Assembly: GCF_030540775.2 (NCBI RefSeq) | Contig: NZ_CP141266.1 | Location: 4,017,001 to 4,081,000, forward strand | Direction of reading: 5' to 3' | Origin: Flavivirga abyssicola | GTDB taxonomy: Bacteria > Bacteroidota > Bacteroidia > Flavobacteriales > Flavobacteriaceae | DNA length: 64,000 nt | Shown here: positions 31,423 through 40,756 of the stretch, piece after piece | How the letters are laid out: the number at the start of each line of letters is the position of its first letter | Position numbering within the stretch: position 1 is the stretch's first letter | Program-made: the position numbers and the translations under genes | Notes under the pieces: generated by a model | Databases searched by the model: none | Seen by the model: only the letters and a program-made list of their open reading frames with translations | What the model was told of the DNA's origin: nothing

Positions 31423-32493
31423 ATGAAAAGTAAAAAGAACTTACAATCGTTTTCGATTCTGGCAGGTATTGTTATGACAGTATTCCTGTCATCCTGTGAA
31501 AAAGACCCAGTTACGTTAGCTTTGCACGAGCCCATTCACCCTACGAGTAGTCAACAAGTAACATACAATCTCACTAAAGTGACATCTGGTAGTATTGACT
31601 CAGCAAAATTGTACGAACAAGTAAGCACAATTAATAGTAGTGGTACTATCACTTCAACAGGTTCTGATGTATTATTGCAAACCTGGACAAGTCCTTCTGG
31701 TGATTTATCTCATACAAAAAGCAGTGGTCATGGATCTAACAAACTCGTAACGTATCGTTGGGAAATAACAACTCCCGATCAAAGCAAAACATTTGAAGTA
31801 ACCTATGCAACACGACCATATCCTGTTACTAATATGCCGGCACCGGTATACTGCCAAGGTGATCCTGATGATGTGTTTGATGTTGTATTTATACCAGACA
31901 CAGATATTACAACTATGTCTAATTTTTATGACAATTGCCACGGTGCCATAGAAGAAGCTTTCTTTGATGAACCTCATACCAGGTTTTGGAGGCGTCAATA
32001 TAATTTTTATATTAATAAACAGAAAGGAACAGCTACCGATTATGATGATATTGCCACAGATGGTACACATCAGGTTCCTTCAAACAATGCTAACTTAGCT
32101 TTTGCAGAAGGAAGGGTTTTAATGCATGAAAATAATTTGAGAGACTACGCTTCTGGAGGGTTGTTTTCTACCGAAATGCAAAATAGAGGAACGATTATGC
32201 ATGAATCTGGACATGCGTTATATGATCTTGCAGATGAATATGGTGGTGGTGTACATTGGGAAGAAACGAATTATCCTAATAATTGGCCAACATTAGCCGA
32301 TGCTCAAGCAGCCGGTAATAATTATGGAAGTTGTAAATCACCATCAGATGCTACAGAAATGGGGTCTAGTGGATGGTATCATTTATGTGTATCAAATTGC
32401 CAGATGGTAACCTCTGGACTTACACATACAGAGTATGACTGTCCTTGTAAATCCAGAATTACATATACAGTACTTGATAACGCTATAAATTAA
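31423..32493 (+). CDS. M64-like zinc metallopeptidase, lipoprotein
   Basis: The protein has 356 residues with a lipobox (FLSSC, Cys near 25). The N-terminal 130 residues form a beta-rich domain. The catalytic part begins near DVVFIPD, a feature of M64 (IgA-peptidase-like) enzymes. The zinc site is HESGHALYDLADEY, that is HExxH plus a distal DE. Several Cys near the end (YGSCKSPS, HLCVSNCQM, YDCPCKSR) suggest disulfides. It is exposed in the envelope and probably degrades proteins. It pairs with the exported protein that starts 6 bases after its stop, and its promoter is of the shared CAGG/GGGG type. Confidence 0.85.
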   Translation: MKSKKNLQSFSILAGIVMTVFLSSCEKDPVTLALHEPIHPTSSQQVTYNLTKVTSGSIDSAKLYEQVSTINSSGTITSTGSDVLLQTWTSPSGDLSHTKSSGHGSNKLVTYRWEITTPDQSKTFEVTYATRPYPVTNMPAPVYCQGDPDDVFDVVFIPDTDITTMSNFYDNCHGAIEEAFFDEPHTRFWRRQYNFYINKQKGTATDYDDIATDGTHQVPSNNANLAFAEGRVLMHENNLRDYASGGLFSTEMQNRGTIMHESGHALYDLADEYGGGVHWEETNYPNNWPTLADAQAAGNNYGSCKSPSDATEMGSSGWYHLCVSNCQMVTSGLTHTEYDCPCKSRITYTVLDNAIN

Positions 32494-33379: not shown

Positions 33380-33787
33380 TTGGGAAAATCTAAACAAACA
33401 CCTCATTTTGATTCTTTTATGCAGGAAGCAGGCGAAGTTAACAGATCTCTGGCTAACGAAAGTTCTATTCTATCAGAAATTGCATCAGCAGAACCTGTTG
33501 TAATAAGCGAACTGCTATCTGCCGAACCAGCAATGATGGAAAAAATACTGTCTGCTGAGCCCACTATGTTATCTGAAATTGCATCAGCAGAACCAACCAT
33601 ACTTGGAGAATTAATAGCCGCAGAGCCATCCTTATTTGCCGAAATAGCAACTGCTGAACCTGCAATGTTATCAGAAATAGCCGCCGCAGAACCTGTTGTT
33701 TTTTCTAAAATAGCGGCAGCAGAGCCGGTAATTTTTGGAAAAGCAATGGCCAGTGTGATTTCTGAAATTGCAAGTTCGAAAAAATAA
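33380..33787 (+). CDS. Repeat peptide with 11-residue AEP repeats
   Basis: The protein has 135 residues. After about 28 non-repeated residues (GKSKQTPHFDSFMQEAGEVN...) come eight copies of an 11-residue unit, consensus [SGA]-[EK]-[IL]-x-x-A-E-P-x-x-[ILFM] (for example SEIASAEPVVI and SEIAAAEPVVF), plus a degenerate ninth copy. There is no signal peptide and no Cys. The start is TTG (ATG at 33419 is the alternative). A perfect 13-bp hairpin separates it from an adenylate-forming enzyme and four coupled genes. No family is recognised. It could be the scaffold or substrate of that enzyme set. Regular Glu and Pro spacing suggests short helices capped by Pro. Confidence 0.75.
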   Translation: MGKSKQTPHFDSFMQEAGEVNRSLANESSILSEIASAEPVVISELLSAEPAMMEKILSAEPTMLSEIASAEPTILGELIAAEPSLFAEIATAEPAMLSEIAAAEPVVFSKIAAAEPVIFGKAMASVISEIASSKK

Positions 33788-33807
33788 ATCATCATACATT
33801 TTAAAAC

Positions 33808-33871
33808 CAGATGCTCTAAGTATTTTATTTCCTGAGACTACTCGTATGGGAATAATAGCTTAGAGCATCTG
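33808..33871 (+). promoter_or_regulatory. 13-bp perfect hairpin between repeat peptide and enzyme genes
   Basis: CAGATGCTCTAAG and CTTAGAGCATCTG are perfect complements separated by 38 bases. There is no T run right after the stem, so it is better seen as an mRNA stabiliser, processing site or attenuator. This would let the peptide be made in excess over the enzymes. Confidence 0.6.
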
Positions 33872-33895
33872 ATTATTAAAAAATTCAGTTATCAG

Positions 33896-35362
33896 ATGGA
33901 TGACCAAACATTGCTTACCGAAAAGCGCCATGTCATTATGACTCCAGATAGATTTCTATCAAAAGTTATAGAATTACCAGAAAAATTAGAGTCAAATCAT
34001 GTAGGATCTGGGATTCTGGCTCCGTTATTTTCTTATATAATCACAGAGCCTGTTAAGTATCACGAAGGCTATGAATTATTACAAAACAAGTTATTAGACC
34101 TTACCTTAAGGACGGCTAAAGAAAATACACCTTACTATAAAGAAACAATACCTAATGATGCTAATTGGACCATATCTAAATTAGATCGATTACTTACGCT
34201 AAGTAAAGATGAACTTTATCAAAATCGTGCAGAGATTCTATCTGAAATCACAACCTTTGGTTTTGTAACTTTTACAACAGGAACCACAAACCAGCCTCCA
34301 TTACTTATTGAAAGGTCTCAGGAAGAGCAATTATATCTTCAAAACTTTTTTTCGATTTTACAGTCAGGGATGTTGCATTCAGAAAAATTAAAACCTCTTG
34401 GCATTGTTGAAGGCTCTATGAACCATGGTTCTGTTTTAAGGCTACCGGGTATAGGGTATAATTTTATGATTGAACTAACTAAGGATTATGGCGTTATCCG
34501 TACAGCCTGGTTGCTACAAAATGAATTTCACTTTAATGGTATTGAAAATAAAGTAAGTCAATTAAATACAACAGTAATGGGATTAAGTTATTTATACCAG
34601 TATTTAACTGAAAACAATATTGAAATTCCAAAAGACCAGCTTAATTCAATAACAATCTTTGGTTGGCCAGTTCCCAAAAGCAGACGCAAAAAATTTGAAG
34701 ATTATTTTAATGTAAAAATTAGTGATAATTATTCCATGTCTGAGATGTTTGGAGGCGCAAAATATTGTCAGCAGTGCGATGGGTACCATTTTGACCCGTT
34801 TGTTGTCCCTGAAATAATAGATTTAGAAACAGGTAAACAATTAGAAACGGGTACAGGAGAACTTATATTAACACCCCTTTTTCCTTTTACGCAGCGTTTT
34901 GTTTTGATACGTTATCGCACTGGTGATTTAGTCGATGTAACTAAAGTAAACTGTGATAAAGGCATACTGGCTTATAAATTTAGAGGACGATTAAAACGTT
35001 GTGTTAAAATGACTCCAGACTTATATTTTGGGGAGGCAGAAATCGCAAAGGCGATTGATGACATTGAAGAACTTAACAGAGCATCAACAGGATTTAGCAT
35101 TTTTAAAGATAATAACAAGAACAATTGGCCATTGTTTAAAATGGTTAAAAAAGATGGTTGTTTCGAAATTCTGATTGAGCTAAAATTTGATCCTCAAAAG
35201 GATTCGAAAACCTCCAATAAAGTACTAAAAAAAATATATGATAAAATACTTTTAGAACTACCAGATTCAGTGACTAACTGGATACAACAAAACCCAGATA
35301 ATTTTAAAATAACCTTGAAATCACCACATAGTTTTGAAAAAAGAGACTATTGGAATTTATAA
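33896..35362 (+). CDS. Adenylate-forming enzyme, PaaK/CapK (F390-synthetase-like) type
   Basis: The protein has 488 residues. AMP-binding motifs of the phenylacetate-CoA ligase/CapK branch are present: the P-loop FTTGTTNQPP, DNYSMSEMFGG for the Tyr/Glu motif, then CDGYHF, TGELILTPLFPFTQRF and the RYRTGDLVDV hinge. A CxxC pair (KYCQQCDGYH) recalls the zinc site in some members. Such enzymes activate a carboxylate as an acyl-AMP, then pass it to CoA or an amine. It is the first of five coupled genes. The substrate is unknown and need not be aromatic. Confidence 0.8.
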   Translation: MDDQTLLTEKRHVIMTPDRFLSKVIELPEKLESNHVGSGILAPLFSYIITEPVKYHEGYELLQNKLLDLTLRTAKENTPYYKETIPNDANWTISKLDRLLTLSKDELYQNRAEILSEITTFGFVTFTTGTTNQPPLLIERSQEEQLYLQNFFSILQSGMLHSEKLKPLGIVEGSMNHGSVLRLPGIGYNFMIELTKDYGVIRTAWLLQNEFHFNGIENKVSQLNTTVMGLSYLYQYLTENNIEIPKDQLNSITIFGWPVPKSRRKKFEDYFNVKISDNYSMSEMFGGAKYCQQCDGYHFDPFVVPEIIDLETGKQLETGTGELILTPLFPFTQRFVLIRYRTGDLVDVTKVNCDKGILAYKFRGRLKRCVKMTPDLYFGEAEIAKAIDDIEELNRASTGFSIFKDNNKNNWPLFKMVKKDGCFEILIELKFDPQKDSKTSNKVLKKIYDKILLELPDSVTNWIQQNPDNFKITLKSPHSFEKRDYWNL

Positions 35363-35376
35363 TTAAACTAAATATT

Positions 35377-36099
35377 ATGACGACACAAACTGTTAATAAC
35401 ACTTTAAAAGAAGAGCCTATTGTTAAGGGAAAAAGTAAGTACCTATATAATTATGACAATGAACATTACATCGCACAATTAATTCCTTCATTATCAAGTT
35501 TTACTTATGATAGGTATGAAATGGTGGAAAAAACCCAAGATTTACGATTGGATTTTTATGAAATGGCTGTCGCATTGTTAAATAAACATGATGTCCCTAC
35601 AGCATTTGTTAAACGATTAGACACAGATAAATACCTGACACGAAAATGTACAAGCCCTCCTTTTGAGGTGATCGTTAAAAATTATGCAGTAGGGTCGACA
35701 CAACGAAAATATCCAGGTCTTTTTCCAGATAATCATAAATTTTCAACGCCCATTGTAAAATTTGATTATAGAATTGATCCTGAAGATATTCCTATTTCTG
35801 CGGATTATTTAAAAGTTTATGGAGAAGATCCAGATTTACTGAAAAAATTAGCATTAAAAACAAATGAGATCTTATGTGAGTGGTTATCTCCAAATGTTCT
35901 AGTCGATTTTTGTTTAATTTTTGGTACCAACAATGATGGAGAAGTTTGTATTACTTCAGAAATATCACCTGACTGTATGCGATTAAAATCTGAAAATGGT
36001 GAATCCCTTGATAAAGATTTATTCAGACAGGGTAAAAGCCATGAAGAAATTATTGATACCTGGACGCAGCTTATCGCCGACATAAAATCAAAAAAATGA
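35377..36099 (+). CDS. PurC-like (SAICAR-synthetase-family) amide ligase, diverged
   Basis: The 240-residue sequence aligns throughout with bacterial PurC: IVKGKSKYLYNYDNE at the ATP site, FEVIVKNYAVGST, and the end EISPDCMRL...GESLDKDLFR. PurC joins aspartate to a carboxylate in purine synthesis. Catalytic-region differences stand out: the usual DFKFEFG is DFCLIFG and the usual DEISPD is SEISPD, so the enzyme has probably been recruited to another amide bond. ATG at 35377 is chosen, 14 bases after the ligase stop; the upstream TTG in frame gives no family match. Four bases overlap the SDR gene. Confidence 0.8.
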   Translation: MTTQTVNNTLKEEPIVKGKSKYLYNYDNEHYIAQLIPSLSSFTYDRYEMVEKTQDLRLDFYEMAVALLNKHDVPTAFVKRLDTDKYLTRKCTSPPFEVIVKNYAVGSTQRKYPGLFPDNHKFSTPIVKFDYRIDPEDIPISADYLKVYGEDPDLLKKLALKTNEILCEWLSPNVLVDFCLIFGTNNDGEVCITSEISPDCMRLKSENGESLDKDLFRQGKSHEEIIDTWTQLIADIKSKK

Positions 36100-36788
36100 G
36101 TAAAAAAGTATTATTAATAACAGGTTCAAACCGTGGTGCAGGTTATGGGATTGCTAAATACTTTTATGATCAGGGCTATGAAATAATATCCTTAAACAGA
36201 ACATTAAAAAATGAAGCATGGCTTGGTGAGTTAAAGTGTGACCTTAGCAAGCCAGATCAGATAATAGGCAGATGTCAGGATCTTGTTAAGGAATCTGTAA
36301 GTATAGATGTATGTATATTAAATGCTGCGGTTAGAAAATTATCATTTATAGAGGATATGCCTTATAAAGATTGGGAAGATTCAGTAGCAACGAATTATTC
36401 AGCAGTTTTTTACTTGCTAAAATCACTTTTACCTATCTTTAAGTCATCAAAAACTTATATAACAGTTATTGGAAGTCATGCTGCAACACATTATTTTGAT
36501 GGAGGTGTAGCTTATTGCAGCACTAAAGCGGCATTAAAAGCTATGGTTGAAGTATTTATTCAAGAAACCAGGGATTATGGAATTAGAACAACTTTAATTA
36601 ATGCGGGAGCAATAAATAATAGACCTAAGGGGAATGATGATAAAAAGTTACAACCGGAGAGCATAGGCAAATGTATTTTCTCTGTAGTTAATTCTAATTC
36701 TGATGTTCTTTTAGGAGAGTTGGAAATTCGTCCATCAATACCTTTAAAACCAAATGAATCGGGCATAAGTAAATTGCAATATGTATAA
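36096..36788 (+). CDS. Short-chain dehydrogenase/reductase
   Basis: The protein has 230 residues. The Rossmann fold opens with the cofactor motif TGSNRGAGYGIA. NAAV follows, with a Ser in TVIGSHAATHY and the catalytic YxxxK (YCSTK). It reduces or oxidises an alcohol or carbonyl with NAD(P)H. The ATG overlaps the PurC-like stop (ATGA), and its stop overlaps the HAD gene, so translation is coupled. The substrate is unknown and probably a product of the two ligases before it. Confidence 0.9.
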   Translation: MSKKVLLITGSNRGAGYGIAKYFYDQGYEIISLNRTLKNEAWLGELKCDLSKPDQIIGRCQDLVKESVSIDVCILNAAVRKLSFIEDMPYKDWEDSVATNYSAVFYLLKSLLPIFKSSKTYITVIGSHAATHYFDGGVAYCSTKAALKAMVEVFIQETRDYGIRTTLINAGAINNRPKGNDDKKLQPESIGKCIFSVVNSNSDVLLGELEIRPSIPLKPNESGISKLQYV

Positions 36789-37653
36789 ACAATCTAATTT
36801 TTCCAATACCATTTTTTATTCCGATTTGGATGGCACACTATTAAATAATAGTGCTAGGTTAGCTCCAAAATGTTATGCAGATCTTCAGAAATTAATTGAT
36901 GATGGTCTCTTGTTTAGTGTCGCTAGTGCAAGAAATTTAACTACGATTCGAAATATGTTAAATGGCATTCATTTAAGTTTACCTGTTGTTAATTTAAATG
37001 GTGCTTATATCTCCGATATCAATACCATGCAGCACATTCAAATTAATGGTATTGAAAAAAATATTAAAAAGAATATTTCTGAGATCATTGAGAGAAATAA
37101 TCTTGGTGTTTTTATTTCTAATCATCAAAAAAATAAAGATGGGATTCTATATTATGGATTAAAAAATCACGGTGAGCACTCGTATTTATGTGATCGACAA
37201 AACAGCAAAGATCAAATTTTGGTAGCTGTTGATCAATTATCTGAGGCCATTTCAAGTGAGGTTACCTGTTTTACATTTATAGATAAAAAAGAAAAACTAG
37301 AAGAATTAATGGCCTATATTCTTAAACATAATGGTCATGGCATAAAAACCCATTTATTTGAAAATCAATACTCAAAAGGATGGTTTTGGCTAACAGTCCA
37401 TAGCCATTTGGCAACAAAATCCAATGCACTTCAGTTTATAAAACAGGAGTATAACTATACCGATAAACTTTTAACGGTATTTGGAGATGGTATTAATGAT
37501 GTAGAAATGTTTGAGTTGGCAGATACAGCAATATCAGTGAATAATGCAATTCCTATTATTAAAGAGAAGTCAGATGTTGTTATTGGTAGCAATGATGAGG
37601 GAAGTGTTGTTAATTACCTCAATCAGTTAAAAAACCAATCCGTTGAATTCTAG
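36781..37653 (+). CDS. HAD-superfamily phosphatase, Cof/IIB type
   Basis: The protein has 290 residues with the nucleophile motif DLDGTLL, motif II with SVASARNLTT, a C2 cap between about residues 85 and 195, and the metal motif FGDGINDVEMFELA. Members dephosphorylate small phosphorylated metabolites. Adjacent to an APH-like kinase, it suggests a phosphorylated intermediate in the pathway of this operon. It overlaps the upstream and downstream genes by 8 and 11 bases. Confidence 0.88.
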   Translation: MYKQSNFSNTIFYSDLDGTLLNNSARLAPKCYADLQKLIDDGLLFSVASARNLTTIRNMLNGIHLSLPVVNLNGAYISDINTMQHIQINGIEKNIKKNISEIIERNNLGVFISNHQKNKDGILYYGLKNHGEHSYLCDRQNSKDQILVAVDQLSEAISSEVTCFTFIDKKEKLEELMAYILKHNGHGIKTHLFENQYSKGWFWLTVHSHLATKSNALQFIKQEYNYTDKLLTVFGDGINDVEMFELADTAISVNNAIPIIKEKSDVVIGSNDEGSVVNYLNQLKNQSVEF

Positions 37654-38632
37654 TCAAATCATTAATTTATGCCTGTCTTCAGAGTTTCAACAAAAATATA
37701 GGTATGAAAAAACGATAGAAACACATATATCATGGATTCTATTATGTAAAGAGTACGCTTTCAAAATTAAAAAACCGTTAAAACTTAAATTTCTTGATTA
37801 TTCAGATGTATCAAAAAGGGAATTTTATTGTAAAAAAGAGCTAAGTTTAAACGATCGGTTTGCTCCAAATGTTTATTTAAAAGTAGTCCCTATTATTTAC
37901 TATCAGAATCAATTCAAGCTTGGAGTAACCTCTGGAGATATTATTGATTATGCTGTTATGATGAAACGGTTAGATGACACACATTTGCTTGCTAATCGTA
38001 TTAATAAAAATATTTTGAAAGCGCCGGAACTTTCAAATTTTTCAACATACATCTATAAAATTCATAAAACATCTAAAGTTTGTTCAGATTTTAATGCTAA
38101 TAAATTAGAAACAAGGTTAAATCAGGTTTTAGAATTAAAAGATAGCATTTGTAAAAAAATTGGAAAAGCAGGTTTTGAGCTTATTCAAAAAGTTATTACG
38201 ACCTCAAATCGGTTTTTAGAAGCAAATAATGCTTTATTCCAAAGTAGGGTTAAACAGAATTATATAAAACATGTTCATGGCGATTTACACTTTGGCAATA
38301 TTTTTATTGACCGTGAAAACATTGTACTTATCGATTGTATAGAATTTGAAGAAGATTATAACAAAATAGATTTATTAGACGATCTGGCAGCCATATTAGT
38401 GGATTTCGATTTTTTTGGAAGACCATATGCTGCCACAAGCTTTATAAACGAATATATATCACATTACAAAGGTAAAACCCCAATGAACGATGCATTGTTA
38501 AATTACTATAAAATGCATCGATCGGTTACAAAGTTTAGTGTAAACATAATGGGAGAGGATGATGAGAACATAGTTAACGCAAAAAAATATTACGCTTTAA
38601 TAAAACAATATGAAAACCTAATTATAGCATAG
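37643..38632 (+). CDS. APH-like kinase (COG2187 type)
   Basis: The protein has 329 residues. Its N-terminal part matches the uncharacterised COG2187 aminoglycoside-phosphotransferase-like family (ETHISWILL, FKIKKPLKLKFLDYSD). The kinase core carries HGDLHFGNI (catalytic Asp, metal Asn) and IDCIEFEEDY. COG2187 proteins in other species may be fused to a P-loop kinase; here that part is absent. TTG is the start, since the next in-frame Met is far inside the domain. It is the last gene of the operon. The substrate is unknown. Confidence 0.82.
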   Translation: MNSSQIINLCLSSEFQQKYRYEKTIETHISWILLCKEYAFKIKKPLKLKFLDYSDVSKREFYCKKELSLNDRFAPNVYLKVVPIIYYQNQFKLGVTSGDIIDYAVMMKRLDDTHLLANRINKNILKAPELSNFSTYIYKIHKTSKVCSDFNANKLETRLNQVLELKDSICKKIGKAGFELIQKVITTSNRFLEANNALFQSRVKQNYIKHVHGDLHFGNIFIDRENIVLIDCIEFEEDYNKIDLLDDLAAILVDFDFFGRPYAATSFINEYISHYKGKTPMNDALLNYYKMHRSVTKFSVNIMGEDDENIVNAKKYYALIKQYENLIIA

Positions 38633-38713: not shown

Positions 38714-39268
38714 ATGAAATCTATTTATATTTTTATTGGGATTATGATGATGTTTTTCTCATGTAAAGCATCAAAATCAACTGCAACTCAAGCTGAGATA
38801 GATTTCCTCAATTCTCTAGTAAACAAGCAAGCGTTCACCATTAAATCAGACCGAGCCTATCCCCAAGTAACAAATGCGTTGCAACAAGTTCTTAATTCGG
38901 GGTTAATGCAACCTGGGAGTAATTCAAGTGTTATTTCTTTAATTGGAAATTATAATTTTTTAACTATATCTAAAGACAGTGTTTCGTCCTTTTTACCATA
39001 TTTTGGAGAAAGACAGATGCAAGTTGCTTATAATGGAGGAGATAGTGCGATACAGTTTGATGGAATTTCAGAAGACTATAAAGCTGTTCAAAATAAGGAT
39101 CATAGTTATACCATTTCATTTCAAGCAAAGAGTAAATTAGAACATTTTCAAGTATTCATTAAATTATTCCCAAACTTAAAAACACATATAACAGTAAATG
39201 GAAATTCTAGGTTTCCAATTAGTTACTCCGGGGATTTGGAATTAATAGATAAGAATACTGTTAAATAA
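38714..39268 (+). CDS. DUF4251 lipoprotein
   Basis: The protein has 184 residues with a lipobox (MMFFSC, Cys17). The rest matches the DUF4251 family pattern: FTIKSDRAYPQVTNALQQVL, YNFLTISKDSVSSFLPYFG, YNGGDSAIQFDGIS and HFQVFIKLFPNLKTHITVNG. Such lipoproteins are common in Bacteroidota and have no known function. It starts 81 bases after the APH-like kinase and may have its own promoter. The 282-base gap downstream contains no other feature I can support. Confidence 0.85.
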   Translation: MKSIYIFIGIMMMFFSCKASKSTATQAEIDFLNSLVNKQAFTIKSDRAYPQVTNALQQVLNSGLMQPGSNSSVISLIGNYNFLTISKDSVSSFLPYFGERQMQVAYNGGDSAIQFDGISEDYKAVQNKDHSYTISFQAKSKLEHFQVFIKLFPNLKTHITVNGNSRFPISYSGDLELIDKNTVK

Positions 39269-39550: not shown

Positions 39551-40756
39551 ATGAAAAAATGTATTTATTTTTTAGCCTTACTAATTATTTCAACATCATG
39601 TAGAAAACATGAGAAAAAACAAGAGGTAGTTGATTTAGCTACAGGACCATCGTCTACAACCACCTGTAAAAATACTTATTCAGAGACTAACGATGTTCAA
39701 ATTGAAAAAGATAAAATTTTTAGTTTACTTTCCTTAGCAGTGGTGTATAAAAACTGGCAAACTCCAGAAACTAATCCAGTTAGAGGGTACAATATTGGTT
39801 CTGTATTAATTGCACCATCAGGTCAAGTTGTTAAATGGGCTAGAAACTGTGTGGATACCACAGCTAATAGCACACAACATGGAGAGGTTAGACTCATGAC
39901 GAGTTATTTAGGCATGACACAATATTTTTCGTTAAAAAATGAAGATGACAACCCCTATACATTATACACATCATTAGAACCATGTGCGATGTGCAGTGGA
40001 ATGATGACATTGCAATCATTAAATAGAACTGTTTATAGCCAAACAGACCCAGATTTTGGAAAAGCTATCCAACGGTTAGAATTTGATGCTGCAGATTACG
40101 GCGGGTGTCCGCCATATCCAAGAGCCGTAATTAGTGATGTGTCTCCATCAATATATCGTTTTATGTTAGATACAGCTTACGTTAATTATTTGAAAAAAGG
40201 CTATGATAGAAGTATTACTAAATTTCTAACAACAGAAAACGCCAGAGTTATATATGCCAGCGCTGTAGATGCATTATTAAATTATCAGGTCGCTTATCCA
40301 GAAAATCAAAGCGCATTAAATAATGCTATTTCGTATTATAATAATATAGTTTCTGATACCTATACACCTTTAGACGATGATGATGATTTAGTTACTACAG
40401 TTTTTACAATCAAGGGGGCTAACACTACTACAGGTACAACAGATGTATATAAAACCTATGGAGGCAATTTATATCAAATAAGCAATAGCCAAGTGTTTAC
40501 TACATTAAATGATATTGATGGCGATGTATTTTTTACTATAATTAATAGCGCTAATCCATCTGAATATGCCATTATTGATTCCGGAGCAAATATTAATACA
40601 GGGGAAGCTTTAGTTAATGTTATGTATCAATATGGTGTGTCCTGTACCGTGACTAAGGAAAAAGAAGAAAACGGTGTTTATTATTTCACTATTGATACAG
40701 CAATAACACATGATAATGATTGTAAATGGAATGGTTCTGAATGTGAACCAATTTAA
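39551..40756 (+). CDS. Lipoprotein with cytidine/adenosine-deaminase-type domain
   Basis: The protein has 401 residues with a lipobox (ISTSC, Cys17), so it is predicted to be exported, which is unusual for this fold. Residues about 50-200 form a deaminase domain: HGEVRLM (zinc His and catalytic Glu, with HGE instead of HAE), and TSLEPCAMCSGMM (the PCxxC pair) as in TadA-like enzymes, then TVYSQTDPDFGKA. The C-terminal 170 residues, including FTIKGANTTTGTTDVYKT, form an unrecognised beta-rich region. The substrate outside the cytosol is unknown. A detached T9SS sorting domain lies just after the stop. Confidence 0.75.
   Translation: MKKCIYFLALLIISTSCRKHEKKQEVVDLATGPSSTTTCKNTYSETNDVQIEKDKIFSLLSLAVVYKNWQTPETNPVRGYNIGSVLIAPSGQVVKWARNCVDTTANSTQHGEVRLMTSYLGMTQYFSLKNEDDNPYTLYTSLEPCAMCSGMMTLQSLNRTVYSQTDPDFGKAIQRLEFDAADYGGCPPYPRAVISDVSPSIYRFMLDTAYVNYLKKGYDRSITKFLTTENARVIYASAVDALLNYQVAYPENQSALNNAISYYNNIVSDTYTPLDDDDDLVTTVFTIKGANTTTGTTDVYKTYGGNLYQISNSQVFTTLNDIDGDVFFTIINSANPSEYAIIDSGANINTGEALVNVMYQYGVSCTVTKEKEENGVYYFTIDTAITHDNDCKWNGSECEPI

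Follow-up and report, generated by a model that had tools for sequence, protein, structure and literature searches.

A Glu-Pro repeat peptide gene linked to a pentostatin-like enzyme operon in Flavobacteriaceae

The window analyzed here is a stretch of 64,000 nucleotides from Flavivirga abyssicola (assembly GCF_030540775.2, contig NZ_CP141266.1, forward-strand positions 4,017,001 to 4,081,000), whose genome is a single contig of 4.68 Mb. It contains a small repeat-peptide gene directly upstream of five enzyme genes, all on the plus strand. The peptide gene (33380-33787, TTG start) encodes 135 residues, including eight 11-residue units with an invariant Glu-Pro in an AEP motif (33488-33727). 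A strong hairpin follows (about 33808-33871), and the first enzyme gene begins after a gap of 108 bases. The encoded enzymes are a PaaK-like adenylate-forming ligase of 488 residues (33896-35362); a SAICAR-synthetase-like (PurC-like, PenC-like) enzyme (35377-36099, ATG start); a short-chain dehydrogenase/reductase (SDR), PenB-like by role (36096-36788); a Cof-type HAD-IIB phosphatase (36781-37653); and an APH/COG2187-like kinase (37643-38632, TTG start). The ends and starts of these reading frames yield intergenic distances of 14, -4, -8, and -11 bases, exactly the five-gene operon described in the initial annotation of this stretch.

Corresponding loci are present in five further genomes: F. 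rizhaonensis (L026); F. amylovorans (L027); an uncultured flavobacterium of the same genus (L028, genome G010); Aureisphaera galaxeae (L029, counted once together with genome G225); and genome G231 (L036). In all six loci, from three genera, the peptide gene lies directly upstream of the enzyme operon. Each operon encodes the ligase, the PurC-like enzyme, the SDR, and the HAD protein, five encode the kinase, and one encodes a HisG-like protein. A conserved small gene thus stands beside a putative modifying enzyme in six of six loci, the arrangement expected for the precursor of a ribosomally synthesized and post-translationally modified peptide (RiPP).

The peptide is real, and its Glu-Pro periodicity is under purifying selection. 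In the window peptide, Glu-Pro dipeptides occupy residues 38, 49, 60, 71, 82, 93, 104, and 115, with every spacing 11. None of 20,000 shuffles of the same residues produced such a run of eight in register (shuffle maximum, three), and the eight AEP repeats reported at the outset are therefore secure. Each of the six orthologous peptides has exactly eight Glu-Pro dipeptides at spacing 11. All 48 dipeptides are kept, with synonymous change at 15 of 16 codon positions, whereas the last residues of the peptides vary. Three of five pairwise comparisons were unsaturated and gave ratios of nonsynonymous to synonymous change (dN/dS) of 0.05, 0.02, and 0.10. (The PurC-like row of G231 was out of register in the selection comparison and was disregarded.) The TTG start in the window is supported by an ATG at the same place in the Aureisphaera and G231 peptides; the start is uncertain in the uncultured flavobacterium. 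Covariation of repeat number, which the initial annotation had proposed to look for, is not seen, as all six peptides have eight repeats.

The system is rare and patchy. Genomes were drawn from the family, the phylum, and the relatives of two carriers; these draws overlap and are samples. A peptide profile found real matches in three of 397 family genomes (the source genome, G225, and G231), with five showing any match at E 0.01, and in one of 395 phylum genomes (the source genome), with six showing any match at E 0.001. Among relatives, the profile matched one of 79 genomes for G231 and one of 247 for G225, in each case the carrier itself. At E 1e-25, a PurC-like profile matched one of 395 phylum genomes and a ligase profile one of 296, again the source genome; within the genus, the ligase is present at 78% identity or higher in four of 12 genomes. 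The remaining weak peptide matches were rejected: two in the family draw lie in the tails of proteins resembling ribosomal L21, and five in the phylum draw lie opposite unrelated repeat-rich or Ala-rich frames. In the genomes sampled, the peptide and the PurC-like clade always occurred together, so neither pattern named beforehand as speaking against linkage (the five genes widespread without a repeat peptide, or the repeat gene unlinked elsewhere) was seen.

Peptide tblastn on plasmid records gave no match, and PHROGs and PADLOC gave no useful result. An IMG/VR scan with the ligase alignment returned eight stretches that matched a pattern, with no relative among them, and the single ligase match in phages was partial (25% coverage). 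The SDR matched 297 plasmid records at less than 60% identity (15 listed, one examined further), and the HisG-like protein matched five, of hisG type. A high-scoring SDR in Persicobacter has no other operon gene nearby. Adjoining the operon downstream is a DUF4251 gene (38714-39268), which 11 of 12 Flavivirga-genus genomes have, carriers and non-carriers of the operon alike. A clean empty insertion site was not found; the DUF4251 neighbors differ among the seven non-carriers having that gene.

These data bear on the simplest alternative, in which an ordinary small-molecule operon has the peptide as a chance neighbor. This is very improbable. Apart from a general prior, nothing was found in its favor, and it conflicts with the linkage in six of six loci, the purifying selection, the lack of any further real match in the sampled genomes, and the recurrence of a peptide-ligase pairing in Alphaproteobacteria (see below).

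The ligase has no Pfam match at E 0.1, and its matches to NCBIfam PaaK-type models are far below cut-off (TIGR02155, 38.4 of 646.3 bits; NF045666, 76 of 300), outside the PaaK CoA ligase equivalog. Among solved structures, the nearest by sequence is a phenylacetate-CoA ligase (59 bits). Residues G129 T130, E283, R339 Y340, and G343 D344 are invariant over eight ligases. GT, E, and RYxxGD are core motifs of the ANL adenylate-forming superfamily, and the adenylation core is present. The original call of an adenylate-forming enzyme thus stands for the ANL core, with the PaaK-type assignment below cut-off. (The structure model, with a predicted local distance difference test score (pLDDT) of 52, was too poor for use.)

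The PurC-like, SDR, and HAD assignments are borne out by Pfam scores over cut-off: SAICAR_synt PF01259, 104 bits; adh_short PF00106, 93.6; and Hydrolase_3, 153.4. The Cof subfamily label is less firm, at 125.3 of 137 bits. Both the SDR and the HAD protein are unremarkable. The PurC-like enzyme differs from housekeeping PurC, scoring 63 of 189.9 bits on the PurC equivalog. Moreover, the DFKxE and DExSPD motifs of the three best solved PurC proteins are DFCLIF and SEISPD in all six flavobacterial enzymes, so that conserved Lys, Glu, and Asp become Cys, Ile, and Ser. In E. coli PurC, the replaced acidic residues are the metal ligands Glu179 and Asp191. The kinase matches only below cut-off (TCAD9, 27.9 of 40 bits; APH, 19.7 of 23.2; RIO1, 16.2 of 22); its HGDLHFGN and IDCIEF motifs fit COG2187, a tentative label. 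No kinase match was found in the Aureisphaera genome at E 0.001. The Aureisphaera operon carries a gene for a 203-residue HisG-like protein between the ligase and PurC-like genes, giving the order HisG-like, PurC-like, SDR. The other five genomes have only ordinary-sized HisG elsewhere (frames of 286-299 residues, 26-30% identical to the Aureisphaera protein).

This enzyme set resembles that for pentostatin and coformycin. In the excerpts of one review, the pentostatin enzymes are PenA (HisG-like), PenB (SDR), and PenC (SAICAR-synthetase-like, role unclear), and the mac cluster (aristeromycin, coformycin) was found with PenB and PenC (PMC12648386). The ade, pentostatin, and pyrazomycin clusters, which are related, also encode HisG and SAICAR-synthetase homologs (PMC13055916). 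The window operon shares the SAICAR-synthetase-like enzyme and the SDR; Aureisphaera has the HisG-like protein too. With the full triad in Aureisphaera and two of three in the window, the enzymes are read as a coformycin/pentostatin-like purine-nucleoside pathway, and the first impression that no described pathway has such a set gives way. There are differences. The window and four other loci lack the HisG-like gene; the flavobacterial operon adds the PaaK-like ligase, Cof-type HAD, kinase, and repeat peptide; and the hosts are Bacteroidota, whereas the clusters in the excerpts of PMC12648386 and PMC13055916 are actinomycete and fungal. The likeness to PenC holds at the level of the SAICAR-synthetase family (PF01259) and that to PenB only at the level of the SDR superfamily (PF00106), both by description. 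Because of this, and because the window has no counterpart of PenA, its operon is classed as pentostatin-like and not as a proven member.

The closest ligases found outside flavobacteria are on alphaproteobacterial plasmids. Ligase tblastn matched 17 of 72,556 plasmid records; the 11 best-scoring proteins are 24-26% identical over 85-87% of the query and come from Rhizobium (eight records, of which five were examined), Roseibium, Aminobacter, and Mesorhizobium. In all seven examined loci of Rhizobium, Aminobacter, and Mesorhizobium, the ligase is preceded by a peptide of 83-88 residues with Glu at every fourth position. Four Rhizobium peptides have 88 residues and 13 Glu in an unbroken run; that of strain Vaf10 has 84 residues and 12 Glu; and that of Aminobacter and Mesorhizobium has 83 residues and 11 Glu at spacing 4. 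Neither the Rhizobium nor the Aminobacter/Mesorhizobium periodicity at lag 4 was equaled in 2000 shuffles.

The genes around these pairs differ. Two fully covered Rhizobium loci (L050, L062) have the ligase followed by subtilase, FolE, PurA, and PurB; the opposite strand encodes QueE, an IMPDH-like protein, nitrile hydratase alpha, QueC, HAD, and phosphoribosyltransferase, and then QueD. Three shorter stretches agree as far as covered. On Rhizobium leguminosarum plasmids (NZ_CP030762.1, 117734-129402, which is L050; L062; and partly L045), the genes seem to make up an almost complete 7-deazapurine set of the toyocamycin/sangivamycin type. One of the three nitrile hydratase genes (alpha) is annotated there, whereas toyJ-L are listed in the review excerpts (PMC12648386). 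On another Rhizobium plasmid (CP090199.1, 143815-145271, L063), two hypothetical proteins are annotated where other strains have a single subtilase gene. Near the Aminobacter and Mesorhizobium ligases are beta-RFAP synthase, PurC (the Aminobacter enzyme retains the Lys and Glu replaced in the flavobacterial ones), PurH, and subtilase. These loci (NZ_AP017989.1, about 55663-68000, L051; and L065) have in common a set similar to that for formycin/pyrazofurin, including a phosphoribosylanthranilate-isomerase gene (compare PMC8724604). For the Streptomyces toyocamycin and formycin clusters, in contrast, the excerpts of PMC8724604 and PMC12648386 mention no peptide, ligase, or subtilase.

Is the pairing a general feature of PaaK-like loci? 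A uniform test covered reading frames within 1000 bases upstream of each ligase, with 1000 shuffles per frame and uncorrected p values. A small upstream frame with Glu periodicity (0 of 1000 shuffles) was found in 13 of 13 loci: six flavobacterial, five Rhizobium, and two Aminobacter/Mesorhizobium. These represent only about three independent lineages. No control PaaK locus of 12 reached p 0.05 (lowest, 0.054); four of the 12 had no upstream frame of 45-200 residues to test, and four had less than 1000 bases upstream. (Eight of 16 generic PaaK loci, L007-L022, were dropped, having no frame above 350 residues on the plus strand.) A remote Streptomyces protein gave p 0.042 from two Glu pairs in one of five frames.

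In the ligase tree with all rows, the flavobacterial, Rhizobium, and Aminobacter/Mesorhizobium ligases group with that of Roseibium (support 94/89), and long branches meet. Because of these long branches, a reduced tree was built from which the Streptomyces, Roseibium, and one Azospirillum rows were left out. In it, the 11 flavobacterial, Rhizobium, and Aminobacter/Mesorhizobium ligases split from 11 PaaK-type controls with support 100/100, and the constraint that joins the flavobacterial ligases to PaaK-like proteins from the same family is rejected (approximately unbiased test, p-AU 9e-5). BLAST scores agree: they are 112-139 bits between flavobacterial and Rhizobium/Aminobacter ligases, whereas these ligases score no higher than 74 bits against the listed controls.

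The peptide is thus linked to the operon, and the combination of a Glu-periodic peptide and a ligase of this clade turns up again next to further nucleoside-antibiotic gene sets. This recurrence points at the Glu residues. The three nucleoside types share a ribose and are not known to have a common carboxylate, which makes peptide Glu the simplest common acyl donor. Our preferred explanation, held tentatively though it may well be right, is that the operon makes a coformycin/pentostatin-type purine nucleoside, which is linked, as such or as a late precursor, to a ribosomal carrier peptide. We infer the following chemistry. The PurC-like enzyme, SDR, and HAD protein (plus the HisG-like phosphoribosyltransferase in Aureisphaera) would turn a purine nucleotide into the nucleoside. 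The PaaK-like ligase would adenylate Glu side-chain carboxylates of the peptide and join each activated Glu as an ester or amide to a nucleoside hydroxyl or amine, loading up to eight copies per peptide. Such a conjugate could keep the inhibitor masked in the producer until proteolysis releases it; the subtilase beside the alphaproteobacterial versions might do the releasing there. The kinase would be accessory, for 5'-phosphate handling or self-protection. The initial annotation had posed a small-molecule cluster and Glu modification as alternatives; the evidence favors both at once. Of the two ligases that it had suggested for Glu modification, only the PaaK-like enzyme was found with Glu-periodic peptides outside Flavobacteriaceae. 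The PurC-like enzyme fits better into the base-making part.

A broader proposal, possible but rather doubtful, is that peptide and ligase form a portable two-gene module. Fitted by different bacteria to unrelated (coformycin-, sangivamycin-, and formycin-like) pathways, it would load many nucleosides on one peptide as a masked, multivalent prodrug or store, and would constitute a new class of ribosomal carrier.

Several points weigh against the conjugate explanation. The modification, the conjugate, and the metabolite are predictions from the genes, and the likeness to PenB and PenC comes from family descriptions. Five of the six flavobacterial operons, including that of the window, have no HisG-like gene, and none has a protease gene. 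The flavobacterial and alphaproteobacterial peptides differ in repeat length (11 versus 4), with no homology seen, and Ala/Glu-rich helices could arise independently in two groups. Few alphaproteobacterial lineages are involved: all five Rhizobium peptides examined are identical except for one missing tetrad, and Aminobacter and Mesorhizobium share one peptide. The Roseibium ligase groups with the clade and yet sits in a heptose/radical-SAM cluster, where Glu periodicity of the small Ala/Glu-rich frame is not significant (p 0.16); counting Roseibium, peptide linkage is 13 of 14. (That locus, NZ_CP128602.1, about 15000-42000, L052, has the related ligase, heptose genes (GmhB-like, RfaE2, RfaD), radical SAM, and a PhyH-type dioxygenase.)

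The same peptide-ligase linkage would be expected if the peptide were a carrier on which the nucleoside is built. An early precursor would be attached to Glu, much as on amino-group carrier proteins, the nucleoside assembled while bound, and the product released free, leaving no conjugate. Biosynthesis on carrier peptides is an established idea (PMC9303977, PMC11212132), and several fixed Glu sites would suit a carrier. However, the nucleosides have different precursors, GTP for deazapurines (PMC12648386) and glutamate carbons for formycin (PMC8724604), as far as the excerpts go, so that no single early precursor is common to all. We consider this version somewhat unlikely.

The distinct non-repeat tails of the Rhizobium and Aminobacter peptides, with subtilase genes close by, suggest another arrangement: a RiPP whose Glu-rich helical leader docks the enzymes, the product being a short C-terminal core joined to the nucleoside as in microcin C. 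In flavobacteria, however, it is the C-terminal residues that vary and the Glu-Pro motifs that are invariant, and the operon, in the window as elsewhere, has no dedicated protease such as the subtilase of the alphaproteobacterial loci. This arrangement is improbable.

The peptide might also be structural, a membrane-surface or sequestering protein with apolipoprotein-like 11-mers that serves protection or export, while the ligase acts on a small acid. Amphipathic 11-residue repeats that include Pro occur in lipid-binding helices, and an AlphaFold model of the peptide, of low confidence and no more than a hint (pLDDT 71; five models, 42-71; six alignment rows), is a string of short helices. The residue that breaks the helix in this model, at 71, 82, 93, 104, and 115, is the Glu of Glu-Pro, which counts on the side of the conjugate explanation. 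A search of PDB folds with this low-confidence model gave no significant match (best E, 1.9), and the same ligase clade follows peptides of quite different repeat length. A structural role therefore carries a low probability.

The proposed nucleoside-peptide conjugate has partial precedents. Microcin C joins a ribosomal peptide to a nucleotide, but its enzyme is ThiF-like and makes a single bond at the C-terminus; here there are many internal Glu residues and an ANL-type ligase. The LysW/AmCP and pearlin carriers likewise use a peptide, or its Glu carboxyl, as a biosynthetic handle, but at a single terminal site and with ATP-grasp or PEARL ligases, whereas here a PaaK-like ligase accompanies a peptide with 8 to 13 internal Glu residues. 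Graspetides are repeat peptides whose side-chain carboxylates are activated with ATP. The present peptides share both repeats and carboxylates, whereas the window operon proteins have no ATP-grasp match in Pfam or NCBIfam, and no Thr, Ser, or Lys partner is conserved in every flavobacterial repeat. Among the matches listed in the open-license PMC literature, no peptide-linked system of this kind, no Rhizobium sangivamycin-type cluster, and no Bacteroidota coformycin-type cluster was found; with subscription papers outside that scope, this is weak evidence of absence.

If correct, the conjugate explanation would mean that Bacteroidota have a nucleoside pathway like that for pentostatin, and that bacteria use side-chain carboxylates of ribosomal peptides to couple nucleoside antibiotics to them. 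It would also suggest how a producer might protect itself, and would supply a natural enzyme for conjugating drugs to peptides. A PaaK-like ligase behind a short Ala/Glu-periodic reading frame offers a handle for genome mining, and PenC-type enzymes, the role of which is called unclear in the excerpts of PMC12648386, would be seen in a new setting.

The hairpin between peptide and enzyme genes, also noted at the start, folds at -32.9 kcal/mol (z -6.3), and none of 200 shuffles was as stable. All four Flavivirga-genus loci have such a site (z -3.4 to -6.9), which would fit production of the peptide in excess of the enzymes in that genus; the hairpin may possibly set this ratio. The corresponding sites give z values of -0.8 in Aureisphaera, -0.5 in G231, and -2.1 to +0.5 in six alphaproteobacterial plasmid loci. 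In Aureisphaera, a terminator-like stem with a T-rich run was seen by eye after the peptide gene (L029, 5884-5967; z -0.8, not significant); it is possible that this stem is a leaky terminator replacing the Flavivirga hairpin.

Two neighboring genes in the window encode probable lipoproteins. One, with an HExxH motif seen by eye (31423-32493), is upstream of the peptide in only two of the other five loci. The other (39551-40756), the second gene downstream of the operon, has a cytidine/MafB19-type deaminase zinc site, and its counterpart in F. rizhaonensis (L026) is inverted.

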